From: an uncultured Gemmatimonadota bacterium
GTDB taxonomy: Bacteria > Gemmatimonadota > Gemmatimonadetes > Gemmatimonadales > Gemmatimonadaceae
NCBI GenBank assembly: GCA_903900795.1
Contig: CAIUOO010000061.1
Span: 1 to 32,171 of the forward strand
DNA length: 32,171 nt
Direction: 5' to 3'
Part shown: in pieces, positions 1 through 31,568 of the stretch
How positions within the stretch are numbered: position 1 is the first letter of the stretch
Layout: each line of letters begins with the position of its first letter
Notes under the pieces: model-generated
Database searches by the model: none
Seen by the model: the letters and a program-made list of their open reading frames with translations, nothing else
What the model was told of the DNA's origin: nothing
Made by a program: the position numbers and the translations under genes

Positions 1-116
1 ACGCAGCATCCGGAACGCTGGCGCGGGAACACCCGCGACTGGTCGCGCCCGACGACGGTGTACTTGAATGATGCACGATCCGCGAGCGCCACCGGCGTCG
101 CGGGATAGAACGTCAT
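1..116 (-). CDS. possible start of a further operon gene, cut by the window edge
   Basis: An ATG on the minus strand at 116 opens a frame that stays open to the window edge (38 complete codons beginning MTFYPATPVALADRASF). It starts 19 bp after the stop of the truncated ATPase, a spacing that fits one more gene of the same operon. I do not recognise the sequence and see no strong Shine-Dalgarno. It could also be a frameshifted piece of the ATPase, but its sequence does not resemble what normally follows a Walker A domain. Sequence beyond the left edge is needed to decide. Confidence 0.3.
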   Translation of the reverse strand, partial: MTFYPATPVALADRASFKYTVVGRDQSRVFPRQRSGCC

Positions 117-135
117 ACGACAACTATCTTGACAC

Positions 136-912
136 TCACCGCGAGGCATAGTCGCGATATTCTTTCTCCAGTGAAACTGAGGGTACGAGCACATCGACTT
201 CGTACCCGAGAGCTCGCGCTTCCCGCATGAGCTGTTGTCCTACAATTGTCTTGCCGGAGCCAGGCGGCCCTTCGCCAATCACCAGCCTTGGTTCACCGCG
301 CGCGCCAGCACTCCCAAACGGCAGAACACGATTGAAAAACCGTTGCTGCGGAGAAAACAGGGCGTACTCGATGACGCCCGCCGCAGCGTCAGACGAGCTG
401 GTCGCCATGCTATCCAGTCGTTCAGCCGAATACTGGGCGATCTGATCCGCCGCGGCGCCTGTCTTTGCCTCTGCGAGCACGTGCTGGTGGAAGTGCCCGA
501 TTCGAGCAAGAAAGGCATCAATCGCGTACGCTCGTGCACGATGCTCTACAAGATGTATGAACGCAGCAAGTGTCCCGTCGAGCCGTGGTACAGTGGTAAA
601 TACTGCACGAACGTCGGCTAACCGCAGCCTGAATTCGCGGCCTGGCGTGTGGGATAGTGCCCGAAGCTTTGAGCCGCGCGTTGTACGGAGCCTCCTCCAC
701 GCGCTTGCCAGCGTGGCGGCCAGATCCTGACACGTCTGGCCATGATGTTCGGCCTCATCCCTTGCCTCACGATGCAGATAGACGGCGGCAATTCGATCAT
801 TCGACGACATCGTACCTCGATAGCACTCGAGGGTGTCGTTCTTGCGGGTCCTGCTCGCGCCACTCAATGCAGAAAGCTGTGGGGACCACTTTCGCGGACC
901 GACAGGAATCAC
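136..912 (-). CDS. P-loop ATPase/helicase-like protein, apparently truncated after Walker A
   Basis: This 258-aa protein begins with a GTG that overlaps the TGA of the upstream DUF262 gene (GTGA). An internal ATG at 810 (MSSNDRIAAVYL) is an alternative start. The first roughly 200 residues are alpha-helical and charged, with no family I recognise. Near residue 215 a clear Walker A appears (GEGPPGSGKT), followed by a helix and a beta strand (YEVDVLVPSVSLEKEY) as in superfamily 1 or DUF2075-type ATPases. The reading frame then stops at 136, so no Walker B, arginine finger or motor motifs exist in this frame. Either the gene was broken by a nonsense or frameshift mutation, or the product is an unusual short protein. 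Nucleotide binding is plausible; motor activity is not. Confidence 0.6.
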   Translation of the reverse strand: MIPVGPRKWSPQLSALSGASRTRKNDTLECYRGTMSSNDRIAAVYLHREARDEAEHHGQTCQDLAATLASAWRRLRTTRGSKLRALSHTPGREFRLRLADVRAVFTTVPRLDGTLAAFIHLVEHRARAYAIDAFLARIGHFHQHVLAEAKTGAAADQIAQYSAERLDSMATSSSDAAAGVIEYALFSPQQRFFNRVLPFGSAGARGEPRLVIGEGPPGSGKTIVGQQLMREARALGYEVDVLVPSVSLEKEYRDYASR

Positions 913-2663
913 TCATCCGCGTCGCCCGGAATCACAAGCATTTTGCGCAGTGCGTGCTTGAGCAATTCCCGCCGGGCGTCGGTGAACGCAATAAAGTCCG
1001 TCAAATCCCTACCGACATTCGGAATGAAGTGCTGCGTGCCGTACGCAGCGGCAGCAGATGGATTGCCACTGAATTGCGCATCGTACCATTCACCAAACGG
1101 CAGGTCCGACTTGGACTGGTTCACATGGCCCTGCAGCAGCTGCAGGTTGGCCAGGCTGTCACGACGATCGACGGATTCTTCCCGGGCGTCGGCGTCGGAC
1201 ATACCAGATTTCTTGAGCTGCGACAGCGTGATCTTCGACCGCGGATGGACATGGTCGATGTGAAACTGATTGGCGAAGTCGAGCCAGGGGTAAAGCAGCG
1301 CCAGCGTCGGGAAGACATATCCGCTGTTATAGTCCTCCTCGAGCATGCGATCGAGGTCGGTGTCGGTGACGCGCATGTCGCGCGCCTCAAGGTCCAGCCG
1401 ATGGACGATTGTCGCGGCCGGAAATACCCCCGGACTTGCGCTAGCGAGCACCTCGCGGACTGCGCGCAGCACGGAGTCGGGCTGACCCGTGAAGGTCCGT
1501 TTGAGAAGCGCCGTGAGCAGCCACCGCCGAATGCGTTCACGATCCTGCTTGTGCGAAGAGGACGTGAGGTACGCGGCGCCGTTTTGCTGCTGCGCCAGAT
1601 AGTACGCGATGGGCACCACGGCGTTCGAGGATGGGATCGTGGCGGACGACAATCCAAACGACGCGAGCAGCTGTGCCGTCTGGTGCAGGGCGTTACGGAT
1701 GCGTGGCCACCGCTCCTCGATGACACGCATGTTCTCTGTAGAGAAGTTTGCGGTCGAGAACCGCGTTTCGAAGTCCGCCAGCATTAGGCAGGTCTTGAGC
1801 ACGAAGTCCTTCGTAAAGGCAAACCCCTGCCCCACCTTGTTCAGGTCGTCGACGAGCAGGTAGATCGCCTCTCGCGCATCCGTGTCCTTCCACTCGGCCG
1901 TCGCGATCGATAGCAGTAGGTCCGAGTACGACAGCACTGTCCCACCGCTGTTCACGCGTACGAAGATCGAGAGGACCTTGTCCAGATCGGGCGCCTTCTC
2001 GAGGTACGCCGACACAGTGCCGCGATCCACTACGTGCCTATAGAGATCGGAGAGCACCTTGGTGGCCAGCTGGTTGTTGCCGAGATCTCTATGCTGAAGC
2101 GCTTGAATGATGTCGAATGGGCTTGAATAGCCCATGACGGTGCCGACACGGAACCACGTGTCGCCCGCATCGTCCACGAGAAAGTCCTCGGTGGACTCCC
2201 GGAAGCGAAGATCATATTCCATCTCCGGATCTTCCGGCTTCTTGGTGAGGCAGACGTACAAGCGCTGCCTGGGATAGGCATTCGGGTTGGTCTTCCGCAC
2301 GCGCGGTTTGCGAAAGGCATACGTGCCACAAAGCCCGATAAACAACGCGGTGAGTCGCTGCTGGCCGTCGAGGACCGCCGTGACATCGTTAGCCCCGGTG
2401 AGCACCGCCTTCTGATTGTGGCGCGCATCCCGCTCGTGATAGTCCTGCACGAAGTGGTAGAACGCGTAGTCGGACGTCCGCGCAGCAGGAACCATCCAGA
2501 AGAGGAAGCTGCCGATTGGATATCCCTTTAGAAGGGAATCGAACAGCTTGACGATCTGGTCGGGCTTCCAAACGAACTCCCGCTGAATCGACGGGAGCAC
2601 ATATTTTCGGTCATTGATGTTGCGGACGGCGTCAGCAACACTGATAGGAGTTTCGAAGGCCAT
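909..2663 (-). CDS. DUF262/HNH nuclease, GmrSD-like type IV restriction protein
   Basis: The 584-aa product begins at the ATG at 2663, 13 bp after the HNH gene's stop; the frame is open further upstream, but only as a shadow of that gene. DUF262 hallmarks are present: VLPSIQREFVW (about residues 22-32), the nucleotide-binding VLDGQQRLTAL (about 97-107) and FVRVNSGG (about 232-239). The C-terminal third has an HNH-type core, HIDHVHPRSK (about 468-477), then DSLANLQLLQGHVNQSKSD, as in DUF1524/GmrD. Known GmrSD enzymes combine an NTP-dependent DUF262 module with an HNH nuclease and cleave modified DNA. Here both halves are in one chain. Target specificity cannot be read from the sequence. It is translationally coupled to the downstream ATPase. 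Confidence 0.85.
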   Translation of the reverse strand: MAFETPISVADAVRNINDRKYVLPSIQREFVWKPDQIVKLFDSLLKGYPIGSFLFWMVPAARTSDYAFYHFVQDYHERDARHNQKAVLTGANDVTAVLDGQQRLTALFIGLCGTYAFRKPRVRKTNPNAYPRQRLYVCLTKKPEDPEMEYDLRFRESTEDFLVDDAGDTWFRVGTVMGYSSPFDIIQALQHRDLGNNQLATKVLSDLYRHVVDRGTVSAYLEKAPDLDKVLSIFVRVNSGGTVLSYSDLLLSIATAEWKDTDAREAIYLLVDDLNKVGQGFAFTKDFVLKTCLMLADFETRFSTANFSTENMRVIEERWPRIRNALHQTAQLLASFGLSSATIPSSNAVVPIAYYLAQQQNGAAYLTSSSHKQDRERIRRWLLTALLKRTFTGQPDSVLRAVREVLASASPGVFPAATIVHRLDLEARDMRVTDTDLDRMLEEDYNSGYVFPTLALLYPWLDFANQFHIDHVHPRSKITLSQLKKSGMSDADAREESVDRRDSLANLQLLQGHVNQSKSDLPFGEWYDAQFSGNPSAAAAYGTQHFIPNVGRDLTDFIAFTDARRELLKHALRKMLVIPGDADE

Positions 2664-2676
2664 GAGGAATGCGTGC

Positions 2677-3450
2677 TCAATTGGTGGTTTTGAAGAGGTG
2701 CTGCCGGTGCCACGCGAAGTACGGTGCGTGCGCGGGCGCGACGGGAATTGCGCAGGCCTCGCCGTCCAGCCCGAGTACTCGCCGTTCAATTGTTGGCAGA
2801 CTTGGTGATACGAGGACTTCACCTTGGGGCCCCACACCGATGAGACCTCGATCAAAAGCCGCATCCAGGTGTGCGGCCAGCAGCAGGCCATTATGCACGT
2901 CCAGCCGCTCGACGTCAGTGGCTTCGCTCCACGGTTTCGCGTGCGACGCGCGCAGCAGTGCCGGCTCGGTGACTCCGGAAATCGGGCAGCGGCCATCCCA
3001 GTAGCCGATTAGCGCCTCACGAAAGTTGGCCTGCCCGATGCGCTGCCGGACTTCGGCGACGCGCTCTGTTTCGCGATCGGCGCTGCTCCGCTCCAGTTCC
3101 TCAAGGACTTGCTGCTCAAAGCGAACCAGCGGCTGGTTCGGGAGGACCTTACCCAGAACGGCGATCCGTCGGCAGAGTGCGTCGAGGGCGCTGTCAGTCC
3201 CGCAGGACCACGCGGCAGTAGCGCCAAGCGGGAGTTCTCCGCTCCACTGCTCGACCGCTGGGACGGAAGCCAATTCCTCGGCAACCGAGGCGGGAGCTGC
3301 CGCGACAATACGTTTGTGCCCCCGGCTCGTGAGCCAGAGTGTCGTGATGCTGTTCGGCGACGTGAAGCGAAGCCATTCACCGTCGGCCCCCAGTTCACGC
3401 TCAAACCCGGCGTCCGTTGCGCGCATGCGAAGAAGCGTATCATCACGCAT
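2677..3450 (-). CDS. HNH endonuclease
   Basis: This 257-aa protein starts at the ATG at 3450, 3 bp after the methylase stop (TAG-CCA-ATG). The C-terminal half carries a classic HNH_2-type domain: RIGQANFREALIGYW (about 136-150), CPISG, a histidine in RASHAKPW (about 171), then the LDVHNGLLLAAHLDAAFDRGLI core (about 185-205). These ββα-metal nuclease histidines and asparagine appear intact. The N-terminal 120 residues are not recognised and could be a DNA- or partner-binding module. It lies directly downstream of a methyltransferase in a tight operon, so it could act as the cleaving partner of a restriction-like system. That role is inferred from position. Confidence 0.85.
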   Translation of the reverse strand: MRDDTLLRMRATDAGFERELGADGEWLRFTSPNSITTLWLTSRGHKRIVAAAPASVAEELASVPAVEQWSGELPLGATAAWSCGTDSALDALCRRIAVLGKVLPNQPLVRFEQQVLEELERSSADRETERVAEVRQRIGQANFREALIGYWDGRCPISGVTEPALLRASHAKPWSEATDVERLDVHNGLLLAAHLDAAFDRGLIGVGPQGEVLVSPSLPTIERRVLGLDGEACAIPVAPAHAPYFAWHRQHLFKTTN

Positions 3451-3453
3451 TGG

Positions 3454-6400
3454 CTATCCAGCTCCAAAGATGCGATCCCACGCCTCAAGCACCAACCGTC
3501 GTGTCCGGTATTCTCCGAACTCGCGGACTTCTTTGTCCTTCAGTACACGGAATGTCTCACTTGGATAGTCCGCGCCCATTACGGACCGAGGATCCAAGAC
3601 GAAATCGAGATCCTGCCGCGTCAAACCGAAGATGCGTCCGCAGCAAGCGTCAATTTCAGCACGAATCGTTGCTTGACGATCCGAACTCAATCTGGGGTGA
3701 GTATCTACTTCTAAGTCGCTCGCCCAGCCGCTCAGGCTCTTGCTTGTGCACGAAAGTTCCGCAACGCGCTGGACAATGTATTCCACCGTAGAAGGCTCGA
3801 TCGTTCGTGGATCCGGGACTGGTAGCTGGCGAAGAATAAAGTACGTCAGGTGGATTCCGCCGACCTTGATTCGTGCGCAGTAGTCGAAGATGAGCGACGA
3901 GAAGATCGCGGAGAGTAGTGCGCCGTGCACCGCCGCGCGCTCGTCCGGCAGAATCAACAAGGGCATCGTGTGCCCGACAGCTACCCTAGGGATAGGTGTG
4001 GCGATCACCGTACGCTCGTCAGTCGCTCGACAGATATCTCTCCATCCCAAAAGCCAGGGTCGCTTCCATCCGATCGCATCTAGGCGCTCGTCAAGGTCCT
4101 CCTGCGGCACCCAATACCGCGGACGCACCTCAAAGCTCGGATCCTGCTTCTCTTGTTCGGTCACGCCGCGAACAGCCTCCTCGTCCCCGCCCGTGTACGT
4201 GGCCCAGCGATGATCGAATTGATGCATCATCTTCGCCTCGTACAGCGGCACGAGTCCCGGGCCGGGTGCGGTGCGAAAGAGTCCCGAGTCGTTCGCCATG
4301 TCGAAGAGTCTCGTAAAGGAGAGCCCCCATGGATTTCCGTCCTCGCGCGTTTCATCCCACAGCACCGGTACGTTCCGGTAGATCTTGGCCGTCAACTCGG
4401 CATCAGCCTTCGATCGAAACACCGGCGCGTTACCGGTGTTGGGATTCAGCCGGCGCAAGTCTTCTGCTGCGAGAGTAAAGCGTCGTCGTTCATCGAAACG
4501 CTGCTCGGGCTGCGTAAGGAAGAAGGCGAAGCGGGGCTCATCGCTTCTCCCAATCGTGAGAAGGCAGAACTTGTAGCTGCGGTGAACGCCGGCGAATAGC
4601 GCGTCCCGATTCTCGAAGTCGATCAGCGACGCGAGACGACCATCGGCCACGTGCCGGAAGTACGGGGCGGTGCCCGCGTCACTCGCGATGCCTGAGGGAA
4701 GCACGAGACCGGCCCGACCATCTGGGTTCACCAGCCGCAGCCCCGCTTCAGCAAAGAGCGCGTACAGGTTCACGTCGCCCGATCCAGTTAGCGGGAAGCG
4801 ACCGCCGTTGCGTGCATATTGACTGGTTCCCTCGGCTTCCTGCTTGGCGCGCTCAAATGCGTCAGCCAGACGACGCGCGGCCGAACCCGACGGCGCGTCA
4901 GTGAGCGTCCGGATCGCCCGCGTGCGGGCTGCGGCGTTCACGGCGTTCGCGATCCGTGGGTCGCGGGTGGCGAAGAACTCCTTCTCACTGAGCTTCACCT
5001 TCTCCCACGGCGGGTTGCCCAGCACGCAGTCAAATCCACCGCGCGCCATGATTTGCGCGAACGTGATCGGCCAATGCAGGAATGGAACCTCGCGCGACAG
5101 CGCCGCCACGGCCTGCTGCATCGGCTGCGGCGGCTCCATGCCCAGGGCGAGGTTGCGCAGTGTCCCCGTCGTAGGCACGAGCGCCCGCCCCGCCTTGTCC
5201 TTGCGCAACAGAAACGCTGCCACGTACGCGTCGCACGCAAACCGGTACCGCGCATCCTCTCGTGATCGGGCCCCTTCCAACGCCTCGCGCTTGGCCTCGA
5301 TCTCCGCCAGCGTGCCGTCTGGCAACGCGTCCACCGCCGCCAGTTCCCGTGCGAGTGACGACGCGTCGAAGCGCACCGTGAGCTGCCCCAGCCGCTCCTG
5401 CTCGAGGGCTCTCAGGTCGGCTGCGTTAGCCTTCTTGAGCGCTTTCAGCACGTCGGCGTCGTCGCCCGTAAGCGGCGTGAAGGCCGCAGCCGGGATGCCG
5501 TCTTCGAGTACCGCTGGGTCGAGCACGCCCAGGATCGCGTCACCGTGCGCCAAGTGATGGTCAAGGAAGGCAAGGGGCTTGCCGGGTTCCATGGCCTCGA
5601 GCCACAGAGCGATCCGCGCGAGCTCCACTGCCATGGCGTTCTTGTCCACACCGTACACGCAATGCGCGACCACGTCGCGTAGGGCATGCCGGAATGCGTC
5701 CGGCCCCGGTGTGCCATCCACCCGAAGGCGGGCGAGGTGGGCTGCAAGGCGTCGCGCGGCACCAAGCAAAAAGTGCCCGCTACCCATGGCGGGGTCGAGC
5801 ACGGCCAAGCGCAGCAGCGCTTGTTCCGGATCCGCGGTATTGAGCGCGCGCGCAATGACAGGCTCCAGCGCCGAGTCGAGCAGCGCCTGCACAAGGGAGT
5901 CGGGCGTGTAATAGCTGCCGCTGAGCTTGCGCGCATTGCCGCTCGTCGCGGCAGCGCTTCCACCGTCCTGCCCTGGTGCCACATCCCCCACGAAGCCGAA
6001 TTTCCAGGCCCCCTCGGCCACCTCCGGGACCAGCTCAAGCAACGACTCGTACACACTGCCCAGCTCCTCCGTGCCCATGTCTCGCCAATTCACTCGCACC
6101 ACTGCGTGCTCGTGCGGCAGCCAGGTAAGCCGGAATACGGCATCAAGCAGCGCCCGATTCGCGAGTCGTGCTGTATCCAGATCCGCGCTCTGCGTGACCG
6201 CAAAGAGTCCACCAAGGCCGGGTAGACCCAAGCGCGGCTCCCCCACCGCGCAGCCACGAAACGCCACCACCAGACTGTCCCATGCGTCATCGTGACGATC
6301 GTACGCCCGACGACGGGCCGAGCGCTCCCGCAGCCGCTGCAGGCCATAGCCAGCGCGGTACATCGTGATGGCACCGGGGTCGTCGGCGGCGGCGTGCAGT

Positions 6401-7311
6401 AGCTCGCGCTCCTCGGCGACGAGCAAAAAGATCATGCGGTACACGACGCGCAGCAGCTGTTGCTGGTAGGCCGCGGCGTCGAGGGCCCCGCTCGTCAGCC
6501 GTTCACGCAGTGCGCTGTTCGACGGGTGCGCTAGAAACCCGGTGCCGAGTGCCCGAAGTGCCGCCTCCACGCCCTCGCGGAGTCGGTCGCGCGCGACGGT
6601 TCCCGCTTCGAGCCCCGCAGCACGCCACTCTTCAAGTATCGCCTCGTGGGCCGGCGCATCGGCACGCCCGAAGCGTGACTCGTGCAGCAACAGCCAGCAG
6701 AGCGAGAAGTCCGCGTACCGCTGCTCGGCAAAGATACGCGCTAGATCCACCTCGATCCACGCCGGTCTTGTGAGCGACGCGTTGTCGCGCACGACTCGTA
6801 GGATGCGCCCATTCGTGACCAGCCCCCACAACGCCCCCTCACTGGCGTTCAGGAACTCCTGCACCAAGCCGAACGGCGAGCGTCGCCGGGCGCCGTCACC
6901 AAAGCGCACGTTCGCGGCATCGAGGTCGTCGTTCGCCGGTGCCACCACAATTGGCACGCTGCCGGCGAGCGCGGAGGCCGTAATCGGGTATGCGCGATCG
7001 CCGAGGAACGGCGCGGAGGCCATGGGCTGGATCGTCTGCCACCCCAATGCGTCACGGAGCAGTGCGAGTACAGCGCGTTCCCGCGCAGCGTTCCCGCCCC
7101 TCGCATCGCCCAACACTTCGCGCCAGTGCGCTTCCGCGATTCGCCAGGCTCGTCCGATCTCGTCGCGGACCGAGAGCCCACGAGGGACCCCGTAATCGGA
7201 GGCGGCCTGATGGCCCGCGTCGAGTGCGGCCACGCGCGCGAGGAAGTCGGCCGAGATCAGCCCACCCTCCACGCGGACGGCATCAAAGGCCAGTGCCGGT
7301 TGGCGCGCCAT
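3454..7311 (-). CDS. Eco57I-like N6-adenine DNA methyltransferase (DISARM/BREX-type large methylase)
   Basis: The 1285-aa product starts at the ATG at 7311, which overlaps the TGA of the SNF2 helicase (TGATG); an in-frame ATG nine codons upstream (7338) is less likely. Methylase motifs are clear: motif I LDPAMGSGHFLLGAARRLA (near residue 505), GVDKNAMAVELARIALWLEAM soon after, and catalytic motif IV LGNPPWEKVK (near 765), typical of gamma-class N6-adenine enzymes. The N-terminal 450 residues resemble the non-catalytic N-terminal part of Eco57I/PglX-type proteins; I do not see a confident PD-(D/E)XK motif there. The C-terminal 400 residues likely hold target recognition (GWRDICRATDERTVIATPIP). 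Sandwiched between two helicases and two nucleases, it probably marks self DNA for this operon's system. Confidence 0.9.
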   Translation of the reverse strand: MARQPALAFDAVRVEGGLISADFLARVAALDAGHQAASDYGVPRGLSVRDEIGRAWRIAEAHWREVLGDARGGNAARERAVLALLRDALGWQTIQPMASAPFLGDRAYPITASALAGSVPIVVAPANDDLDAANVRFGDGARRRSPFGLVQEFLNASEGALWGLVTNGRILRVVRDNASLTRPAWIEVDLARIFAEQRYADFSLCWLLLHESRFGRADAPAHEAILEEWRAAGLEAGTVARDRLREGVEAALRALGTGFLAHPSNSALRERLTSGALDAAAYQQQLLRVVYRMIFLLVAEERELLHAAADDPGAITMYRAGYGLQRLRERSARRRAYDRHDDAWDSLVVAFRGCAVGEPRLGLPGLGGLFAVTQSADLDTARLANRALLDAVFRLTWLPHEHAVVRVNWRDMGTEELGSVYESLLELVPEVAEGAWKFGFVGDVAPGQDGGSAAATSGNARKLSGSYYTPDSLVQALLDSALEPVIARALNTADPEQALLRLAVLDPAMGSGHFLLGAARRLAAHLARLRVDGTPGPDAFRHALRDVVAHCVYGVDKNAMAVELARIALWLEAMEPGKPLAFLDHHLAHGDAILGVLDPAVLEDGIPAAAFTPLTGDDADVLKALKKANAADLRALEQERLGQLTVRFDASSLARELAAVDALPDGTLAEIEAKREALEGARSREDARYRFACDAYVAAFLLRKDKAGRALVPTTGTLRNLALGMEPPQPMQQAVAALSREVPFLHWPITFAQIMARGGFDCVLGNPPWEKVKLSEKEFFATRDPRIANAVNAAARTRAIRTLTDAPSGSAARRLADAFERAKQEAEGTSQYARNGGRFPLTGSGDVNLYALFAEAGLRLVNPDGRAGLVLPSGIASDAGTAPYFRHVADGRLASLIDFENRDALFAGVHRSYKFCLLTIGRSDEPRFAFFLTQPEQRFDERRRFTLAAEDLRRLNPNTGNAPVFRSKADAELTAKIYRNVPVLWDETREDGNPWGLSFTRLFDMANDSGLFRTAPGPGLVPLYEAKMMHQFDHRWATYTGGDEEAVRGVTEQEKQDPSFEVRPRYWVPQEDLDERLDAIGWKRPWLLGWRDICRATDERTVIATPIPRVAVGHTMPLLILPDERAAVHGALLSAIFSSLIFDYCARIKVGGIHLTYFILRQLPVPDPRTIEPSTVEYIVQRVAELSCTSKSLSGWASDLEVDTHPRLSSDRQATIRAEIDACCGRIFGLTRQDLDFVLDPRSVMGADYPSETFRVLKDKEVREFGEYRTRRLVLEAWDRIFGAG

Positions 7312-10121
7312 CAGCGCACCTCCGGCAGCAGAATCCATGCACCGATCACGTCAGCCGGTTCCATCGCACGAACCGAATACGCACCGCGCGCTTTCGCGGC
7401 GTCACGCACCCGCCGGTGATCCGCCAACAGGGCATCAGCGCGGCGGCGCGCCACGTCGGCCAGTACCGGCGCCAGTCGTGCCTGTTGTGATACCAACCAT
7501 TCGAGCTGTGCCGCCCGTACTCCATCGGGGAGCGTGCCACTCGGCTCAGCCAGCAGGAGACGCGAGGCCTCTTCGTCGGTGAGCGGGGCATCCGCGCCGG
7601 CAACGATCGCGACCGGCAGCGCCTCCTCGACCAGCGACTGGATCGCGGGCTTGTCCTTGCGCGCAATGGTGAGTTCGTATCGGAGCCGCGCCACCACGAG
7701 CAGCGTACGCGTGGCGACCGCCGGTGTTGGCCACACGCCGGTGCGCCCCAGCACCGTGGCACCGCCATGGATGCCGTCGCTGTCGAGGGTGTGCTCGAGT
7801 AGGGTGTCGGCCAGCGTGGCCGGGAGCGGATGGCTTCGGCGCATCGGAAGCGCAGCACCGACGGCCACATCACCTGGCACCACGCGTAGTCGCCGCCCCG
7901 CGATACCGGCCAATTCCAGCCGTTCGCGCATGGCTTGGTCGAAATCGTCGAGATTCAGCGTGAGCACGCCGGATGCCGATCGTTGGGGCGCCGAGCCGAC
8001 GCGCGCGCTGGCGCGCTCCACGAAGCGCGTGAGCTCGACCACATTGCCAAGCGCTTCCTGTGCACGGGCAAACTCCGGCGCGACGTCCTCCGGCTTGAGG
8101 CGCCGTTGCGCGAACTTCGTCGCGACGCGACTGGCCCTCGCTTCGGCGTTCTGCCACGCCACATCCACCGCCTTCGCTTCAGGCAGACCGGCAAGTTCGA
8201 GCGTTAGCTGACCAGCGTCTGGCCGGTTTCGGCGTCGCAGTAACACGGCACGAAGGAGCGCTTCGGTGAGCTGTCGTTCCTCGTCGGGAAGCGGTACGGG
8301 GACACCTAGGCGGGCGGCGATCGTCGCGGCCTTGCGAAGGATCACTTCAAGCACCGCACCATCCACCGGATTATTTGCTCCGAACAGCAGGACGGTACGC
8401 ACCACGGGAGAAGCCTGACCGAAGCGGTCGACGCGCCCCTCACGCTGCTCATGACGCGTAGGATTCCACGAGAGGTCGTAGTGCACGACCGCATCGAACC
8501 GATCCTGCAGGTTGACGCCCTCAGAGAGACAGTCCGTGGCCACCAGAATGCGCGGGGACTCACGGTCGAACGCGTCCACCAGTTCCGTCCGCGCGTCGGA
8601 GGGTAACTCGCCCGTTACCGCTGTGACCTGTACACCGGGGAACCGATGGCGCAGGTGCTCGGCCACATAGTGCGCCGTGGCGATGTAGTGGCAGAACACG
8701 ATGGGGGCGAAGCCTTCGGCCAGCAGTGTTTTGAGCTGGTCGCCGAGCGCGTCGAGCTTTGGGTCCGCACCTTCACCGGCGAGCGCCTTGGCATGCTCCA
8801 GGAGCGCCTGCACTTCGGCCGCCCCCGTATCTGCGGCCGGCTCGGCGTCGACGGACGACTCACCCTCATCCGGGTCGAGCTCGAAGACCTGTTCGCCCAG
8901 TCGTTCAACGGCCTCGTTATCGAGCGCGCCTGCGAGGCGTGTCTGGAGTGCGCGGATCGCGGCCGCAGGCGAAGAGGCTACGCAGCGCAGCAAGGCGAGC
9001 GTGCCCCAAAAGGCGAGTCGGCGCTCCCGCGTGCCGGTTCCGGCCGCTTCGGTGACCTCCTCGCAATACGCCAGCACCTCCTCGAGAAATGACTCCCAGG
9101 CGCCCGTCAGCCGGTACGGTAGATCTGCCGACTCTCGATGGGGAAAGAGCGTCTCGTCGTGCCACTCGCGGATATCGATGCGTCGCCGCTGCACGAGATG
9201 CCCTGCCAACCGGTCGCGAAACGCAGGCGTCATGTCCTGATCGCGCATGTCCTCGAGTTGCGCGAACGAAGGATCAACGAGGGCAAGCAGACGCACAAAC
9301 GCGGTTTCGTCACCGCTGTGCGGCGTCGCCGTGCACAGGATGGCGTGCCGGTCGGCCGACTCGAGAAGCTGGGACAGCAGGCGGTAGCGCTGGTGTCGAA
9401 CGCCGGCACCGGTCGTACAGGTGTGCGCTTCGTCCACCACAATGGCTTCCGGGCAGCTGCGGGCAAACTCGTCGCGACGACGATCGCTCTTGATGTAGTC
9501 GAGTGAGACCACGGTGAACGGGTGCGCATCAAAGAGCGATGCGCCCATCGGCAATCCCCGTTCCAGTCGGCGGGCTGTGCCGGCTGTGACCGCTTCAGCC
9601 GCGAAGTGGAATCGCGTGCGCAATTCCTTTACCCACTGATCCACGAGATGCGGCGGGCAGAGGACGGCGAATCGGCGGATCTCGCCGCGATCGTACAGCT
9701 CACGCATGATGAGCAGCGCCTCGATCGTCTTGCCAAGACCTACGTCGTCGGCAATGAGTAGCCGCACGGTCTCCTGCGAGAGGGCCATCATCAGCGGTAC
9801 GAGCTGGTAGGGCCGCGGGCTCACGTCCACCTGGCCAAACGAGCGGAACGGACCAGCACCTCTGCGCAGTGAGAGCCGGAGCGCATCGTGCAGCAACACG
9901 GCGTCGGCATGTCCGCCTTCCTGGTCGGCGCGTGGCCACGGGAATGTGGCGGCGGCAACATCGGGCTCGAGGCCAAGATGCAGTACGGTGGCGTCCTCCT
10001 CGCTGCCACTCAACGGGCGCAGGCGGAGCACGTCGCCCGAACTGCCGGGCTGCACGACCCATTCACGGCGGCGGGCGCGTACCAGCGTTCCGGGTACAAA
10101 ATTACGTATCGTGAGAGACAT
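7311..10121 (-). CDS. SNF2-family DNA helicase/translocase of the defence operon
   Basis: The 936-aa protein starts at the ATG at 10121, overlapping the stop of the large helicase (TGATG). The N-terminus (FVPGTLVRARRREWVV) looks like a small SH3-like fold. RPYQLVPLMMAL leads into Walker A LLIADDVGLGKTIEALL (about residue 125), Walker B/DEAH VVDEAHTC (about 228), motif III CTATPHSGDE, and a helicase C lobe with ATDCLSEGVNLQ and motif VI REGRVDRFGQ (about 560). The last 300 residues are helical. SNF2 proteins translocate on duplex DNA. Similar helicases sit next to large methylases in DISARM (DrmD), but this N-terminus does not match the DrmD I recall, so I give no symbol. Confidence 0.9.
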   Translation of the reverse strand: MSLTIRNFVPGTLVRARRREWVVQPGSSGDVLRLRPLSGSEEDATVLHLGLEPDVAAATFPWPRADQEGGHADAVLLHDALRLSLRRGAGPFRSFGQVDVSPRPYQLVPLMMALSQETVRLLIADDVGLGKTIEALLIMRELYDRGEIRRFAVLCPPHLVDQWVKELRTRFHFAAEAVTAGTARRLERGLPMGASLFDAHPFTVVSLDYIKSDRRRDEFARSCPEAIVVDEAHTCTTGAGVRHQRYRLLSQLLESADRHAILCTATPHSGDETAFVRLLALVDPSFAQLEDMRDQDMTPAFRDRLAGHLVQRRRIDIREWHDETLFPHRESADLPYRLTGAWESFLEEVLAYCEEVTEAAGTGTRERRLAFWGTLALLRCVASSPAAAIRALQTRLAGALDNEAVERLGEQVFELDPDEGESSVDAEPAADTGAAEVQALLEHAKALAGEGADPKLDALGDQLKTLLAEGFAPIVFCHYIATAHYVAEHLRHRFPGVQVTAVTGELPSDARTELVDAFDRESPRILVATDCLSEGVNLQDRFDAVVHYDLSWNPTRHEQREGRVDRFGQASPVVRTVLLFGANNPVDGAVLEVILRKAATIAARLGVPVPLPDEERQLTEALLRAVLLRRRNRPDAGQLTLELAGLPEAKAVDVAWQNAEARASRVATKFAQRRLKPEDVAPEFARAQEALGNVVELTRFVERASARVGSAPQRSASGVLTLNLDDFDQAMRERLELAGIAGRRLRVVPGDVAVGAALPMRRSHPLPATLADTLLEHTLDSDGIHGGATVLGRTGVWPTPAVATRTLLVVARLRYELTIARKDKPAIQSLVEEALPVAIVAGADAPLTDEEASRLLLAEPSGTLPDGVRAAQLEWLVSQQARLAPVLADVARRRADALLADHRRVRDAAKARGAYSVRAMEPADVIGAWILLPEVR

Positions 10122-13100
10122 CAGCGTGCGGATTCGAGGTACTTGGACAGACGGAGGAACAGATCCGGCCAGCGTCCGACATCAGCGGGGAAAGAGAACA
10201 GCGTCGTGCCCTCGTTCTCGAGTTGTTCCTTCAGGGCGGCTGGTGTATCAGCGAGGACCACTGCCGCATAGGCCGCGGCCCATCGGGGCGCCGAGTTGCC
10301 GGCTATGGTCCAGGCAGGGAGCGTGATACCGGAGGCGGCGCGCGCCTCTTCCCAGCGGATAAGCCACGGTGATCGCTCGTGCGGATCGATGAGCACGTCG
10401 TGCACATCGAGGGATGGCGGAGCGTCGTGGACAGCGGTCGCGATCTGGGCCAGGCGCAGCAGCAGTCGTCGCGTGGGAATGTCTGTGCGGTCGACGGCGT
10501 CGTGGTCGGGCTGATTGAAATACGACAGCACGCACCGATAGCAGGCGCGTACGCAGGCATCGGGGGTGTCGGCCAACGCTTCTGCGCTGGGCAGCGTGGC
10601 GTCGGCTCTCCAGTCAGGCAGGTCAAGGTGCATGAGCCGAAGCGCCTCGTGCGCGACCCGCGCCATGGCATCGGGCTCGTGCACCAAGCGAGTAAGCACA
10701 CCAGCCCCTCCTTCAGTGGCTTCGTAGAAGAGCAACCCACGGCGCCGCTCCCGGTCAGGGAGCGGTTCCACGAGTAGCTCGCCTTCTTCCAGCTGGTATA
10801 CGAGTTCTATGGCACGTCGCACCGCGTGCTGAAACGTCGCCCGCGTAGTGGCCGACAGATTCTCGTCATCAAAGAATCGGAGCAGCAGCGCGTTCTTCTG
10901 ATCTTGGACAAAGGGTACGACACGTTGAGCAGCCACTCGTCCGGGATTCGGCCCGTCGCTGTCATCGTCGCCTAGGCCGCGCCCCCACCATCCTGTGCTG
11001 GGGTTGATGTCGAAGCCGTGTGACGAGCGTTCCTTGCGGCGACGAAGACCCAGATTGATACGCGTGATGGTCGCGCTGGACCCATACTGTAGTAACAGCA
11101 CGTCACCGGCCGCGTCCGCGGCTCGCACCGTGCGCACGCTTGGTCCGTCCCCGCGCTCTGCCCAGCGGAACGTGGTAACGAGCTCAAAGCCCTGCCGCTG
11201 ACGCTCTTCGTCGTCGGCGGTGATACGCTCTGTGGGGCGCGTATCCACGTGCTCAATACGGAGCAGGTTCCTGACCAGCATGGCGTTGCCCAGTGAGGCG
11301 CCGCATGCATGGCAGCCATTGCGGTGCGTCTCAAGGTGCCCACCACCGCATGTCGTGCACACACGCACCTGCTGCACCGCCAGTTGTCCAACCTGTGGGG
11401 CCGTCCCTTCCTGGCGTCCCCCGAGGCGCACTTTCACCACGCGATACGTGCGACCCTCGTGATACAACAATGATTTCGGACCAAACTCGGAGAGCGCCAG
11501 AAAACGCGGGCGCTGCACGTAGGCCTGATCTTTCTCACGCTCTCCGGGAATGCATGCGAGCAGCGGCAGTCGCGGGAAATTATAGCCGGGCAGGAAACCT
11601 TCGGTCGCGAGGTAGCGATAGAGATTGAAGTCACTTGACTGCTCCTGATTTCGGTCCTGCAGGGCAAGCAACAGGTCCGTGGCTACCGCCTGCTCACGCT
11701 TTGCCATCCACTGCTGCTCGGGTGGCTGGGTATGATCGTCAAGTATGCGACGTGCCTGGTCGCGCTGGTGGAGCGCGCTCTGATACAGCGAACGCCAGCG
11801 CTCAAACGCGCGATCAAACGAGCGGCCGGCAGCATCGATGACGCGGTCCGCAAAGGCAGCCGCACTATCGAACCATGGGGCGCGTGCAGGGTCAAGTTCG
11901 TCCGTCAGCAAACCGAGTACGCGTATGCTTCTCTCACGGGCCTCCGCCGCTACTTCGGGCAACGACAACGGATCCATGACTTCCGGCAACACCGCCTGAG
12001 TCCCGCCGGCACTCAGATCAAGCACCTCGCTGATGCCCTTCGGGAGCGGATGACGCGAGGATGCAAGCCAGACCGCATGCAGATGACTGGAGATGAGGTC
12101 GCGATTGGCAAGGTCGAGCAGCGGCGCACGTACTTCGCCGTGTACCATCGCACGCGGCTTACGGAAGAAGTGCTGATCGTGAGGGCTTCGCGACGCACAG
12201 TACGTCACGACGAGTGCGGCCATACCGCTGCGTCCGGCGCGACCGCTGCGCTGTGCGTAGTTGGCGGGCGTCGGCGGTACGTTGCGCAGATACACAGCGT
12301 TGAGCGCCGAGATGTCGACGCCCAACTCCATCGTGGGCGAGCAGAACAGGAGCGGCAGGAACGAGGCGCGCTCCCCTTCCGCCCGACGCTCCGCGCTCGT
12401 CTCGAGTTCTCTCTTCTCCTCTTGCCCGAAGCGAAAGCGCTTCTCGCGGAGGCGCCGACGAACATCCTTCACCTGGGCCGTATGCTCACGCGCCTCGAAG
12501 CCAAAGAGCGGCGAGTCACCCGCGTTCAACTGTGCAGCGATGGTCTCGTAAAGCCGCACGAAATACGGGTTCGCCGTCTCGTTCGGAGCGGCCGCGACAT
12601 AGCGAACGGCATCGGCAGCCAACTGCCAACCCGGGACGCTGAATGGTGTTTGCGGCGTCTTGGTAACGAGGCCGTGGTAGCGCAGAAACTCTAGCAGATT
12701 GTTGATCAAATCGGCGTACGCTTTTCGGTCAGGCGCCCAGCTTGACCGCTCGCCCCACAGGGAGGCCTTGCGAAGCTGTCGGCCAAGCGTGGTGGTGAAG
12801 CCGCCGCGAAGCAGCCGCTCAGCGTCACGCGCAGTGACTCGTGCAGGCGCCTCAACCGTCATCCATGCGGGAACTCGTGGGTGCTCATCGCGCGCGATGC
12901 CCCACGAGGCCTGAAGCATGGTTTGGCTGCGGGCCTGCGTCGTCTCGAAGGCTGTCCTCTCAAAGGCCGGCGCATCGACCGCAGAGCCGAGTCGCAGGTG
13001 GTCGAGTACTGTGCGCATTACCCGCGCTCGCACGTCCGGTGCGACGCCAGGTAACGTACCGGGTGCATCCTTCATGGCGGCCTCGTCGCGCACTAGCGTC

Positions 13101-15418
13101 TCGAGGCGGTCGTACCGTGCGTGCACGAGCCCGAGGCGCTCTAGCGTCGGGTTGGTGTAGCGCCACCCGCGCCGCTGATCGAGCCAGATTCGGTAGGCCA
13201 GTACCTGACGTAATGCAGCTGCTGCGTCTTCAACCTTGCCGGGCCCGACGTCGGGATCAAGAAGCCACGCTGCCAGATGCGAGTCCTTCGGAACTTCGTC
13301 ACGAAGCAATGGCCGGTCGAAGCCGAGCGCACTTTGCATCGCGGCGCCCACCTCATCAAGCGTGAGGCCAGTCGCGCCCGCGCGCTGAACAGCGAGCAGC
13401 AGTGCGCCACGTGTGAGGCATACCTGAACGAAGTCGTTGAAATGACCGGCTTGGAGAGCCGCATCCTGCCGATTGTCGGTGAACGCGAGCAGTTTACGGC
13501 TATATGTCGGGAGGTCGTCTGACACGTGCATCCACCGTAGCACGGATGCGGTGAGCATGGTCGTGGCCGACGAGCGGCCCTCGGCCGAGAGCGACGCAAG
13601 GCGGGTAATGTCCTTCCCCTGCGCTCCCCAGCTCGTACCACATCGCAGGCATAGGCGGAATTTCCCGGGCATGAACCACGCCTGGTATCCCGACGGCGTT
13701 TCACGACCATCAGAGCCGACGCGCACCGCTTGTGCTCGATACGGCTTGTAATTGGACCGGATGCGGCGCGAGCCATTCGCGCGTGTCTCGAGCCAATCCT
13801 CAGGGTACGCCTCGTCCGTACCATCAAACTCGAGAGGATCACCTGAAGACAGCCCCGCGAGCGTGATGAACCCTACGATCTCATGCTCGCCGTCTTCGCC
13901 AGTATCATCCTCGTCGTCGGCGGTGGTGCGTACCGGTCCGTCGTCGATGCTGCGCGGCAGCATGAGTCCCTTCACACGCCGCACCGGATGGTACTCGTGG
14001 CCGCAGTTGCGGCAGAAGTGCGTCTCGTACAGCCGCTTGTCCGGCGCAGCTGGCAAGAATGGTTGCGCCTCGAGCTCCACGACGCGGGCGCCGGGTGGCT
14101 CCAGTGTGCTGTACACCGTGCCCGCACCAGAGAGGAACTGGTGCAGCTTGAACGCAAAGAATGGCGAGGCTGAAGCACTCGGGTCGCCAGTGCGCTCTTG
14201 TTCCGAGCGTGCCGCGAGCAGCAAGAATGCGGCCAATGCCGGCTCAACCACCTCGCGTGACGCGCCGGAGACGGCGGTGAGTTCATCGATCGCCTCCTTG
14301 AGTGTCCGCGGCTTGGCACGTACCAGACGGGCGCCGGGCTCACGGGCCAGCCCGAGGGTATTCTCTACCCACACGGACAGCGGATGCCCCTCAAGTTGCT
14401 CGTCGGTTGCCGACGATGACGGCAGGGTCTCAAGTGCGGCAGCCAGCCGAGGCGCGATGCTGGTCTCAGTCTCGGCTCGATCGGTGACTCGTACCAGCGT
14501 CTCGGTGACGACGCTCGTGTACGGGATGTCGGCCGCAAAGATCCGCGACGCGACCTCCGCAACCCGCCGATTGCGCTCGACGTAGTCTCCCTCAGATGCC
14601 ATGGTCGCTGACGTACCGATGCAGATCAGCCGCTCGCCCGCCAGCCGTTCACGCACACGACGGACGAGCATCGCAACGTCGGCCCCTTGTCGACCACGAT
14701 ACGTGTGCAGCTCATCGAGTACGAGGAACTGGAGGTCCGATGCATTCGCGATGACGGCACGATCAAGCGGCGCCTGACGTGTCATCAGGAGCTCAAGCAT
14801 CATGAAGTTCGTAAGCAGGATGTCGGGCGGGCTAGCCCGGATCCGCTCACGCTCATCCTCCCGTTCCTGGCCGGTGAACCGCCCGAAGGTCACCGGCGGC
14901 TTCGGCAGCCGCCCGGGGAACTTGCCCAGTTCCTCAAGCTGTGAGTTTGCGAGAGCATTCATCGGGTAGATCACGATCGCTCGTGTGCGCGGCGTCGGAT
15001 CAAGCGCCTTCGCCTTGATAATCGCATCGATGATCGGCACGAAGAAACAGAGCGATTTTCCGGAGCCGGTTCCCGTGGTTACGACAAAGCTCTTGTCGGC
15101 CTGGGCAAACGCGAGCGCTTCGCGCTGGTGCCGATGCAAGCGGAGGGGTTCGCCGGCCGTACCCGTTCCTTCGGGGTCGCGGCGCCGAAAGATCCGCGCC
15201 ATGTCGGTATGGAGGCGTCCCTCAGCGACCAGCTCCTCGACGGTTTTCGACGGCTCGAACCGCGGGTTGATTTGCAGCAGCGGTTCTGGCCAGTAGCGAC
15301 CGCTCGCATAGGCGCTGTCGACCTGCTCCCGAATATCCTGCGCGCGTATGCCCGTAAAGGAACGCGCAAACCGTTCATAGTCGGCGACTAGGGTGTTGCG
15401 AAGGTCGAAGACGTCCAT
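10121..15418 (-). CDS. giant DEAD/DEAH helicase with Zn-binding DUF1998-like C-terminus (DrmA/DrmB- or DruE-like)
   Basis: The 1765-aa protein is the first gene of the minus-strand operon (ATG at 15418). Superfamily 2 motifs: HRHQREAL (Q-like), TTGTGSGKSLCFFVP (Walker A, about residue 116), VIYPMNALANSQ, VLDELHTYRGRQG (DELH variant of DEAH, about 233), GTSATM, SPTMELGVDISAL and QRSGRAGRSG (motif VI, about 1057). Several cysteine clusters suggest zinc sites: CRNCGHEYHP (about 469), CLRCGTSWG (about 592), CTTCGGGHLETHRNGCHACG (about 1345-1365) and CVRACYRCVLSYF (about 1622), the last typical of DUF1998/MZB ends. In DISARM the helicase (DrmA) and DUF1998 protein (DrmB) are separate; Druantia DruE is similarly huge. 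Which it is closer to needs a profile search. Confidence 0.88.
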   Translation of the reverse strand: MDVFDLRNTLVADYERFARSFTGIRAQDIREQVDSAYASGRYWPEPLLQINPRFEPSKTVEELVAEGRLHTDMARIFRRRDPEGTGTAGEPLRLHRHQREALAFAQADKSFVVTTGTGSGKSLCFFVPIIDAIIKAKALDPTPRTRAIVIYPMNALANSQLEELGKFPGRLPKPPVTFGRFTGQEREDERERIRASPPDILLTNFMMLELLMTRQAPLDRAVIANASDLQFLVLDELHTYRGRQGADVAMLVRRVRERLAGERLICIGTSATMASEGDYVERNRRVAEVASRIFAADIPYTSVVTETLVRVTDRAETETSIAPRLAAALETLPSSSATDEQLEGHPLSVWVENTLGLAREPGARLVRAKPRTLKEAIDELTAVSGASREVVEPALAAFLLLAARSEQERTGDPSASASPFFAFKLHQFLSGAGTVYSTLEPPGARVVELEAQPFLPAAPDKRLYETHFCRNCGHEYHPVRRVKGLMLPRSIDDGPVRTTADDEDDTGEDGEHEIVGFITLAGLSSGDPLEFDGTDEAYPEDWLETRANGSRRIRSNYKPYRAQAVRVGSDGRETPSGYQAWFMPGKFRLCLRCGTSWGAQGKDITRLASLSAEGRSSATTMLTASVLRWMHVSDDLPTYSRKLLAFTDNRQDAALQAGHFNDFVQVCLTRGALLLAVQRAGATGLTLDEVGAAMQSALGFDRPLLRDEVPKDSHLAAWLLDPDVGPGKVEDAAAALRQVLAYRIWLDQRRGWRYTNPTLERLGLVHARYDRLETLVRDEAAMKDAPGTLPGVAPDVRARVMRTVLDHLRLGSAVDAPAFERTAFETTQARSQTMLQASWGIARDEHPRVPAWMTVEAPARVTARDAERLLRGGFTTTLGRQLRKASLWGERSSWAPDRKAYADLINNLLEFLRYHGLVTKTPQTPFSVPGWQLAADAVRYVAAAPNETANPYFVRLYETIAAQLNAGDSPLFGFEAREHTAQVKDVRRRLREKRFRFGQEEKRELETSAERRAEGERASFLPLLFCSPTMELGVDISALNAVYLRNVPPTPANYAQRSGRAGRSGMAALVVTYCASRSPHDQHFFRKPRAMVHGEVRAPLLDLANRDLISSHLHAVWLASSRHPLPKGISEVLDLSAGGTQAVLPEVMDPLSLPEVAAEARERSIRVLGLLTDELDPARAPWFDSAAAFADRVIDAAGRSFDRAFERWRSLYQSALHQRDQARRILDDHTQPPEQQWMAKREQAVATDLLLALQDRNQEQSSDFNLYRYLATEGFLPGYNFPRLPLLACIPGEREKDQAYVQRPRFLALSEFGPKSLLYHEGRTYRVVKVRLGGRQEGTAPQVGQLAVQQVRVCTTCGGGHLETHRNGCHACGASLGNAMLVRNLLRIEHVDTRPTERITADDEERQRQGFELVTTFRWAERGDGPSVRTVRAADAAGDVLLLQYGSSATITRINLGLRRRKERSSHGFDINPSTGWWGRGLGDDDSDGPNPGRVAAQRVVPFVQDQKNALLLRFFDDENLSATTRATFQHAVRRAIELVYQLEEGELLVEPLPDRERRRGLLFYEATEGGAGVLTRLVHEPDAMARVAHEALRLMHLDLPDWRADATLPSAEALADTPDACVRACYRCVLSYFNQPDHDAVDRTDIPTRRLLLRLAQIATAVHDAPPSLDVHDVLIDPHERSPWLIRWEEARAASGITLPAWTIAGNSAPRWAAAYAAVVLADTPAALKEQLENEGTTLFSFPADVGRWPDLFLRLSKYLESAR

Positions 15419-16135: not shown

Positions 16136-16284
16136 CCGCTCTGCGTGCAACCCCCTCGAAGGCATCGTATATATTGGCGGTAGGGGTTGGCAAAGACCGT
16201 GTGACGTCGCCGAACCAGAGCCTAATCGGCTTAAAATTTGACTTTCCCCTTTGTATTTCAACATCCAGTGACGAGGACGAGTGC

Positions 16285-16875
16285 GTGCAAGGGAGAATAA
16301 AGTGGTTCGACTATTCAAAGGGATTTGGCTTCGTCACGCCCCAAGACGGAAGCCCGGATGCATTTATCCACGAGAGTGAGCTTTCGCCAACTGATCTCCG
16401 GCCATTCTCTGAAGGTGAAGCCGTTGAATTTGAGATCGTTGCCGCCAGGCTAGGCCCTGCCGCTGTTAACGTGCGGCGCATTGACGCACTCATGACTGGG
16501 TCGCCGGTCGGCGACTCCGCAGTGAGTGCCAGTACTAGGCCGTTAGCTCCCGCATCTGGCGATGTGTTCAATTTCCTGAACCAGAACCAGCGAATCGTCC
16601 TTAATGTTGACAGCATGTCCGAGGAGCAGAAGCAGACACTGCTCAGCTGGGGAATGCATATGTACGGCCTTGGCCAGCACCGGGTCGCGAACATTGAAGC
16701 CATCAAGTACGATGGTCGGCTGATCGTGCTGGATGATGGTTCGCGCTGGGAAGTAAAATCCAGTGATCATCTGACTGCTTCGATATGGAGCGAGTATGAG
16801 CAGGTGGTCATCATAGATGACAAGATGTTTCTCTTGAACGAGAGTGAGGCCATTGATGTCGAGGAAGAGGCGTAG
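16285..16875 (+). CDS. cold-shock-domain protein with C-terminal SH3-like barrel
   Basis: I chose the GTG at 16285 because it gives the normal cold-shock N-terminus (QGRIKWFDYSKGFGFV) and has a GAGGA element about 10 bp upstream; the frame is open back to a TTG at 16174. The 196-aa product has a cold-shock domain at residues 1-70 with RNP1 KGFGFV and RNP2-like DAFIHESEL, which bind single-stranded nucleic acid. A variable linker follows. The C-terminal 60 residues (IVLDDGSRWEVKSSDHLTASIW... MFLLNESEAIDVEEEA) look like a small SH3-like beta-barrel seen in many bacterial proteins. Free-standing Csp proteins are about 70 aa, so this is a fusion. It lies just upstream of zorA on the same strand, so co-transcription is likely. 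Confidence 0.85.
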   Translation: MQGRIKWFDYSKGFGFVTPQDGSPDAFIHESELSPTDLRPFSEGEAVEFEIVAARLGPAAVNVRRIDALMTGSPVGDSAVSASTRPLAPASGDVFNFLNQNQRIVLNVDSMSEEQKQTLLSWGMHMYGLGQHRVANIEAIKYDGRLIVLDDGSRWEVKSSDHLTASIWSEYEQVVIIDDKMFLLNESEAIDVEEEA

Positions 16876-16878
16876 CCA

Positions 16879-17004
16879 TTGATCACCGAACTCTTGCAGT
16901 CGCACCGTTCGATCGTGGCTCCGGAAGCTTTCCTCGTATCGCTGACCAAGGCGACTTTGGCGAAGCTAACGAGTAGTGCCGGAGGCACTAAAGAATGCCA
17001 GTGA
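16879..17004 (+). CDS. possible 41-aa small protein between the cold-shock gene and zorA
   Basis: A short open frame starts at a TTG 3 bp after the cold-shock stop and ends with a TGA 10 nt inside zorA. It encodes LITELLQSHRSIVAPEAFL followed by VSLTKATLAKLTSSAG and a short tail. A purine-rich GAGGAAGAGG (16861-16870) lies 8 nt before the TTG, and third-position G+C (about 65%) is similar to neighbouring genes. The peptide would form an amphipathic helix. There is no ATG, and a TTG start weakens the case. It could simply be spacer that happens to be open. Confidence 0.35.
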   Translation: MITELLQSHRSIVAPEAFLVSLTKATLAKLTSSAGGTKECQ

Positions 17005-19004: not shown

Positions 19005-19013
19005 GAAGATGAC

Positions 19014-27557: not shown

Positions 27558-27561
27558 CGGC

Positions 27562-31307: not shown

Positions 31308-31568
31308 CGGCACGCGGCTCACGCCGTCGTCCGCGAAATCGTGATGCAGGCGTACTGATTGAACGGAATACTGAATCCCATTGTGGTCTCCTCGTGATCG
31401 ACACACGCGCGCCGCTGATACTCACATGATGCGCGATCGATCTGACAGAGACTAGGCTTTCGTGGGAGATCCGACAGCGTCTGGGTGTCCCCCGCCTCTC
31501 GCGTTCCCCCCTCCCCAGCTGAATTGTGCGGGATCCCCGCTCCCCCCACGCCCCACCCGCTCCCACCC

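Follow-up and report, generated by a model that had tools for sequence, protein, structure and literature searches.

A predicted ARMADA Type I locus with a decayed Vsr-type helicase tail and a co-inherited HNH nuclease gene

A six-gene operon in an uncultured Gemmatimonadaceae genome

The stretch of DNA analysed here (the window) is the entire contig CAIUOO010000061.1 (C61), 32,171 nucleotides from an uncultured Gemmatimonadota bacterium of the family Gemmatimonadaceae, whose assembly (GCA_903900795.1) is in 580 contigs. On its minus strand, from position 15418 to 136, open reading frames (ORFs) outline six co-directional genes lying head to tail, here called g1 to g6, which encode two helicases, an adenine methylase, an HNH nuclease, a GmrSD-like protein and the start of a P-loop NTPase (Table 1). 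Neighbouring genes overlap by as much as 28 bases or are separated by at most 13, and chance does not account for a tandem of six ORFs of this length with these domains. An original prediction had seen in these genes one undescribed composite defence system built around a DISARM-like core. The tight packing of the six genes was confirmed by the ORFs and Pfam domains in tandem, and, as that prediction had it, Pfam finds neither a separate DUF1998 gene nor a phospholipase-D gene among them.

Some gene boundaries can be drawn in more than one way. Translation of g3 may alternatively begin at Met10 (position 7311). The start of g5 is most likely at 2663 rather than at the ORF start of 2996, because its relative at locus L121, in a genome of the window's own family, aligns from that methionine, and with this start an overlap of g4 and g5 is not required. 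The reading frame of g6 closes at 136, whereas a different frame continues without a stop up to the contig end (window positions 1-136, minus strand); this break is either a real interruption or an assembly error, and because g6 is incomplete at the contig end its full length and function are not readable.

Table 1. Operon genes and neighbouring defence-related features of the window
Feature	Position	Strand	Description
g1	10121..15418	-	1,765 residues; YprA/DruE-like giant helicase (the "YprA homologue" of ARMADA I); Pfam DEAD, Helicase_C, MZB
Decayed Vsr-type tail of g1	10124..10501	-	Residues 1640-1765; by hhalign to intact tails
g2	7311..10121	-	936 residues; SNF2/RapA-like (BrxHII-like) helicase; Pfam SNF2-rel_dom
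g3	3454..7338	-	1,294 residues; PglX/Eco57I-like N6-adenine methylase; Pfam Eco57I/N6_Mtase
g4	2677..3450	-	257 residues; HNH nuclease; Pfam HNH_2
g5	909..2663	-	584 residues; GmrSD/DUF262 type IV restriction-like; Pfam GmrSD_N, GmrSD_C below cut-off
g6	136..912	-	P-loop NTPase start, 258 residues readable; Pfam AAA_30, nSTAND3 below cut-off
Cold-shock domain protein	16174-16875	+	
Zorya type I	16995-24560	+	ZorA, ZorB, ZorC (EH signature), ZorD
McrB-like AAA_5 gene and McrC gene	25050-28842	+	Pfam McrBC, 342 bits
YhcG/DUF1016 nuclease-family protein	30252-31406	-	PADLOC PDC-S02

The operon core is an ARMADA Type I variant

In the parts of the ARMADA preprint drawn on here (Bell et al. 2025, bioRxiv; PMC12458937), Type I loci generally carry a YprA-like helicase, then a BrxHII-like helicase and then a PglX-like methylase, the YprA-like helicase being most similar to that of Druantia and ending in a predicted active Vsr nuclease. 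The genes g1 to g3 stand in this same order, g1 is nearer to DruE than to DrmA, and its helicase and DUF1998 parts share one chain. By gene order and domain content, the window's core is thus predicted to be ARMADA Type I, a kind already described in the same parts of that preprint, and the claim that it was undescribed did not survive this comparison. The tail of g1 is homologous to the Vsr-type domain and lacks its catalytic residues, so we file the window as a variant of ARMADA I and not as a standard member. A defence role is likely, as the original prediction had it.

The core proteins carry the expected motifs. In g1, a Walker A motif (GTGSGKS) lies at residue 116 and DELH at residue 235. 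There are CxxC pairs at residues 469 and 590, and a long stretch separates the helicase halves; both would be compatible with the inserts of ARMADA I, which are a BrxA-like one after RecA1 and, in RecA2, a zinc-binding beta-barrel and a MarR-like one. The MZB/DUF1998 region spans residues 1529-1630 by Pfam. The PADLOC profile DruE1 matches g1 at 288 bits versus 48.5 bits for the best DrmA profile. A structure model of the C-terminal part (mean predicted local distance difference test score 78.5) matches MrfA (6znp) and DrmB of DISARM (7s9v_B), and the best PDB sequence matches are 9tu7 (2,108 residues) and 9wae (1,970 residues), which we can only guess to be DruE. The second helicase, g2, has GLGKT at residue 128 and DEAH at residue 230, and RapA is its top solved-structure match. 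Its best PADLOC models after the one named DpdE are DrmD (255 bits) and BrxHI/BrxHII (229 bits). The DpdE model itself (PDLC02853 of PADLOC-DB 2.0.0) covers this ARMADA SNF2 helicase over its full length at 603 bits, and ARMADA loci may for this reason be mislabelled as Dpd components. The methylase g3 has DPAMGSG at residue 515 and NPPW at residue 775, and is nearest to DrmMI (218 bits) and type IIG enzymes among PADLOC models.

Related systems share parts of this core. With class 1 DISARM (DrmD, DrmMI, DrmA, DrmB, DrmC) the window has in common a SNF2 helicase, an adenine methylase and the DUF1998-type canopy fold, but by Pfam its six genes include neither the DrmA/DrmB split nor the phospholipase-D protein DrmC; the predicted kinship of the helicase-helicase-methylase core to a DISARM lacking DrmB and DrmC was borne out. 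DruE of Druantia is the closest profile to g1, whereas the window's operon has a methylase and a BrxHII-like helicase. In Druantia, DruE is accompanied by DruH, by DruA-D or by DruM/F/G. None of these partners is among the PADLOC matches listed for the six proteins searched, nor are the BREX ATPase BrxC and PglZ among their listed Pfam and PADLOC matches. ARMADA Type II has helicases and a methylase homologous to those of the window, but the preprint's sections used here give it the order BrxHII-like helicase, methylase, YprA in third place and a fourth helicase with a RelE-like domain (RelE-GajB-like), an order and a gene that the window lacks; phage protection has been shown for this type with ArmABCD of E. 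coli NCTC 12900, all four genes being needed (PMC12458937). Where the Type I of those sections has a predicted active Vsr, the window has a decayed one and a stable fourth gene, an HNH nuclease. The word HNH occurs once in the preprint's main text, inside a reference title.

The Vsr-type tail has lost its catalytic residues

Relatives of g2 were gathered from 395 genomes of the window's phylum, from plasmids, from 80 genome loci and from two class samples (337 and 369 genomes). For plasmids, 220 records had a g2-like match, 40 of which were listed and 19, chosen by organism, fetched. Seventeen of the 80 genome loci (L102-L118) were dropped before counting, their g2 matches of at most 219 bits being other SNF2 helicases. 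This left 108 loci in total, with near-copies (for example L034/L138/L144 and L124-L128) counted separately. The tail of the YprA-like helicase is readable in 91 of them, 48 being intact and 43 decayed, and unreadable in 17. A tail was called from a motif pattern that includes three catalytic positions, and two loci (L151, L157) were assigned manually to the intact group on inspection of their motifs.

In intact tails the Vsr-like E, D, D and H columns are each occupied in 48/48 sequences. The figures for the three positions in the calling pattern, here and for the decayed tails below, are partly circular; the glutamate column lies outside the pattern. The 34 non-actinobacterial decayed tails, to which the window's g1 belongs, align with the 48 intact ones at an hhalign probability of 99.3 (E 3.8e-20). 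In all 34 the final catalytic D and H are deleted, and the E is kept in three. Ratios of nonsynonymous to synonymous substitution rates (dN/dS) are 0.21-0.32 in decayed tails versus 0.05-0.075 in the bodies of the same helicases (computable for four of seven pairs, three of which involve just three sequences), and 0.16-0.20 in intact tails versus 0.12-0.16 in helicase bodies (three pairs). The decayed tails are therefore under relaxed, still present, constraint. The original prediction did not mention this decayed nuclease domain.

Another form of decay occurs in actinobacterial ARMADA I-like loci (L063, L064, L070, L072, L074 and L076-L079), whose tails have lost Vsr catalytic residues at near full length. 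The E is lost in all nine and the H often; none has the HNH gene, and McrB-like genes lie near some.

An HNH gene follows the methylase in loci with decayed tails

The g4 protein consists of an N-terminal domain (about residues 1-105) and an HNH domain resembling that of VcaM4I, an EVE-HNH modification-dependent nuclease (6yex; PMC7897488), with 32% identity over 139 residues. Its active-site residues are H170, N187, D196 and D200; the site corresponds to H224, D250 and D254 of VcaM4I, with the same catalytic H/D/D, and is invariant in 22 of 22 HNH proteins. Searches with a profile built from 11 of the ARMADA-linked HNH proteins placed the gene between -3 and 5,356 bases past the methylase in 26 loci with decayed tails and in one with an intact tail (L047). 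Methylase-then-HNH loci come from alpha-, beta- and gammaproteobacteria, campylobacteria and myxobacteria as well as the window's phylum, and in the window, L038, L044 and L140 the two genes either overlap, by up to 3 bases, or lie a few bases apart. A compact example is on plasmid pISP0 of Sphingomonas sp. MM-1 (G432_RS20340-20355), where the four genes follow one another with none intervening.

Among loci that either have a detected HNH or can be read for at least 4 kb beyond the methylase, the gene is present in 26/35 decayed loci versus 1/31 intact ones (Fisher p 1e-9, kinship ignored). The difference holds with a strict requirement of at least 4 kb (24/33 versus 1/31), with a cut at 5.4 kb (26/32 versus 1/22), and with three loci whose operons ran off the fetched DNA, and which were extended for the main count, taken as first fetched (23/33 versus 1/31). 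Outside Actinomycetota, 26 of the 28 decayed loci in the main count have the gene.

Ten records (eight with matches) were also searched for HNH at genome level, as were, later, six genomes whose loci are cut by a contig end, five with decayed tails and one (L154) of unknown state. The expectation that the latter would carry the gene elsewhere held in part. Two of the six have a full-length HNH on another contig, two a weak partial match, and two no HNH in the genome-level search. In G143 the contig with the full-length gene opens, in operon direction, with a methylase C-terminus (59 residues, 78% identical), and in G229 the gene is near the start of a short contig. The genomes of L040 and L052 gave only HNH proteins outside the ARMADA-linked group.

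The HNH gene is inherited with the helicases

Trees were built for g2 relatives (104 of the 108 loci, leaving out L097 and rows shorter than 500 residues) and for HNH relatives. HNH distances correlate with those of g2 (Mantel r 0.89), g1 (0.86) and g3 (0.67) across 25 of the 27 HNH loci, with 0 of 5,000 permutations reaching the observed value in each case (the incomplete L041 and L045 were left out); for comparison, r is 0.79 between g3 and g2 and 0.96 between g1 and g2. For HNH, five of seven pairs give a dN/dS of 0.09-0.18; dS is saturated (>1.7) in four of the five, and the unsaturated pair has a ratio of 0.18. The HNH gene is under purifying selection and has long been a stable part of a single large lineage of ARMADA I. 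The suggestion that it is part of the system, made in the original prediction, is supported by this co-inheritance with the helicases.

In the HNH tree the 25 ARMADA-linked proteins group with support of 92/89, below the threshold for a starred branch, and three others nest among them. For two of these (L160, L161) no trace of ARMADA was detected across the 12.6 and 8.4 kb covered. The third lies on a Paracoccus versutus plasmid (L159:3755-6700), downstream of a short C-terminal remnant of the methylase that is 78% identical to that of L048; no core helicase match was found within the 12.7 kb read, and this is probably a decayed ARMADA locus.

Genes beyond the HNH gene are variable

The g5 protein matches Pfam GmrSD_N at 101 bits and GmrSD_C at 19.9 bits, below the cut-off of 23, and covers nearly the whole PADLOC model of GmrSD type IV restriction (HEC-05; 699 bits, spanning positions 15-593 of the 600 in the model), with the difference that g5 sits inside an ARMADA operon. 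It is 60% identical to a gene that also lies downstream of ARMADA-HNH in L121, one of the window's nearest relatives with readable downstream DNA, where the order is HNH, an RmuC-family gene (L121:16474-17880) and GmrSD; other matches in the 395 phylum genomes reach at most 43%. Among the 26 decayed loci with HNH, some with short DNA past that gene, only the window and L121 have a close GmrSD, and L039, a similarly near relative, lacks one over the roughly 10 kb that follow HNH. Three loci have DUF262 genes of more distant kinship, situated behind HNH in L046, farther downstream in L038, and upstream in L142. Ten genomes of the phylum sample have a GmrSD at E 1e-60: in two it is beside ARMADA, in G139 both are present on separate contigs, and seven have no ARMADA-type g2 match. 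GmrSD relatives also occur in 372 plasmid records, ARMADA status disregarded, mostly from Klebsiella and Escherichia, with 38-42% identity among the 20 matches listed. The GmrSD gene is a lineage-restricted rider and most likely contributes additional type IV restriction directed at modified phage DNA. For g6 no match was found in plasmids or in 297 other genomes.

The idea that all six genes act as one obligate composite, the methylase marking DNA, the helicases sensing or moving it, HNH and GmrSD cutting and the ATPase assisting, would fit their tight coupling and the L121 locus, where HNH is likewise followed, after RmuC, by the GmrSD of 60% identity. We consider it improbable, because among the 26 decayed loci with HNH, some of them with little readable DNA past that gene, a close GmrSD recurs in that one relative only, because seven of the ten phylum-sample genomes with GmrSD gave no ARMADA-type g2 match, and because g6 is without relatives in the plasmids and genomes searched. 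The conserved unit is instead helicase, helicase, methylase and HNH.

In many loci extra genes, including SMC-like, UvrD-like and PDC-S39 proteins, lie between the methylase and HNH, where the window has none. An SMC-like protein of about 650 residues, weakly like LmuB of Lamassu, is encoded there in 11 of the 27 HNH loci (L034, L039, L041, L047, L048, L050, L137, L138, L143, L144 and L149) and also follows the methylase in three loci with an intact Vsr (L040, L073, L075); it may be a further ARMADA I accessory. A UvrD-like helicase immediately precedes HNH in three loci (L041:19188-21854, L051:18096-20804 and L139:19305-22007); it is distantly like GajB and recalls the GajB-like fourth gene of ARMADA II in the preprint's account cited above.

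A possible transfer of DNA cleavage to the HNH protein

We consider it fairly probable that, in the large ARMADA I lineage to which the window belongs, the Vsr domain fused to the YprA-like helicase has decayed and DNA is cut in trans by the separate HNH protein encoded in the operon after the methylase. The PglX-like methylase would mark self DNA, and the RapA-like and YprA-like helicases would load on, and travel along, unmarked or abnormal phage DNA. Meanwhile the HNH protein may be kept inactive by its own N-terminal domain and linker, in the fashion of VcaM4I, until the helicase complex frees it and cleavage follows. We infer defence activity of the locus, self methylation and contact between HNH and helicases, and also that the HNH protein has probably replaced the dead Vsr domain and was not simply added to it. 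A fuller version, which we hold to be evenly balanced, adds that the N-terminal domain of the gated HNH is a previously undescribed sensor or docking domain, and that SMC-like ATPases, UvrD-like helicases, RmuC and GmrSD have been inserted or added as extra layers. In the literature searched we found no account of an ARMADA lineage of four genes in which the fused nuclease is retired and an HNH is co-inherited. The way in which ARMADA halts phage DNA is an open question; a natural lineage that keeps HNH with a dead Vsr brings it within reach of tests that alter one gene or residue at a time, and annotation tools gain a fourth ARMADA I component, HNH, to look for.

Several observations weigh against this proposal. 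Apart from L031, decayed loci from outside Actinomycetota fall essentially into a single clade of the g2 tree, which has a support of 90 and comprises 31 decayed loci with one whose state is unknown; a single origin of decay is not rejected (approximately unbiased test, p 0.167), and the independent pairs, three on starred branches and six in all, are too few for significance. The pairing of HNH presence with Vsr decay thus rests on one or two events, and replacement is only inferred because both traits changed together no more often than that. Nine decayed loci in the main count lack HNH: seven actinobacterial ones (those with enough DNA among the nine described above), L052, where the methylase is split, and L141, where an IS21 element follows it. 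Conversely, L047 carries an intact Vsr together with HNH, which hints that the arrival of HNH may have preceded the loss of Vsr and made that domain dispensable. The extension of fetched DNA favours our proposal, since it was limited to three decayed loci, each already shown to be HNH-positive among the 10 records searched genome-wide. HNH could also serve the variable genes, because SMC-like, UvrD-like and other genes lie between it and the methylase in many loci. Finally, cleavage, methylation and binding are here predicted from sequence.

Two other accounts of the HNH gene draw on the same observations. ARMADA may have acquired it as an auxiliary or back-up nuclease, with Vsr having decayed for another reason, such as a cut made elsewhere in the complex, or protein displacement or a block to replication. 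Both L047 and the actinobacterial loci fit this account, and the parts used here of a study of BREX and related systems (PMC12839542) give HNH, GmrSD and other nucleases an auxiliary or compensatory role, which sets a precedent for the idea and not for the window's system. We regard it as rather unlikely, though the strongest of the alternatives, given that no HNH was found in 30 of the 31 intact loci that can be read for at least 4 kb, that 26 of the 28 counted decayed loci outside Actinomycetota have it, and that HNH divergence tracks the helicases as closely as the methylase does. That HNH is instead an independent, stand-alone restriction gene hitch-hiking in a defence island would agree with related HNH genes on plasmids outside ARMADA and with L160 and L161, nested among ARMADA-linked proteins. 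Against it stand the co-inheritance with g1 and g2, the near-contiguity with the methylase in four loci and the recurrence of the same position across several proteobacterial classes and other phyla, and we find it very improbable. Transfer of cleavage from Vsr to HNH remains the reading we prefer.

Other defence genes in the window

A complete Zorya type I system lies beside the ARMADA operon, its four genes matching the PADLOC ZorABCD type 1 models; in E. coli, according to the sections of the ARMADA preprint consulted, Zorya II adjoins ARMADA II (PMC12458937). Beyond it, the McrB-like and McrC genes make up another type IV restriction system of the island, and a YhcG/DUF1016 nuclease-family gene is found nearer the contig end. 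The cold-shock domain gene is located between the ARMADA and Zorya operons, and in L138 a cold-shock gene also comes after HNH.

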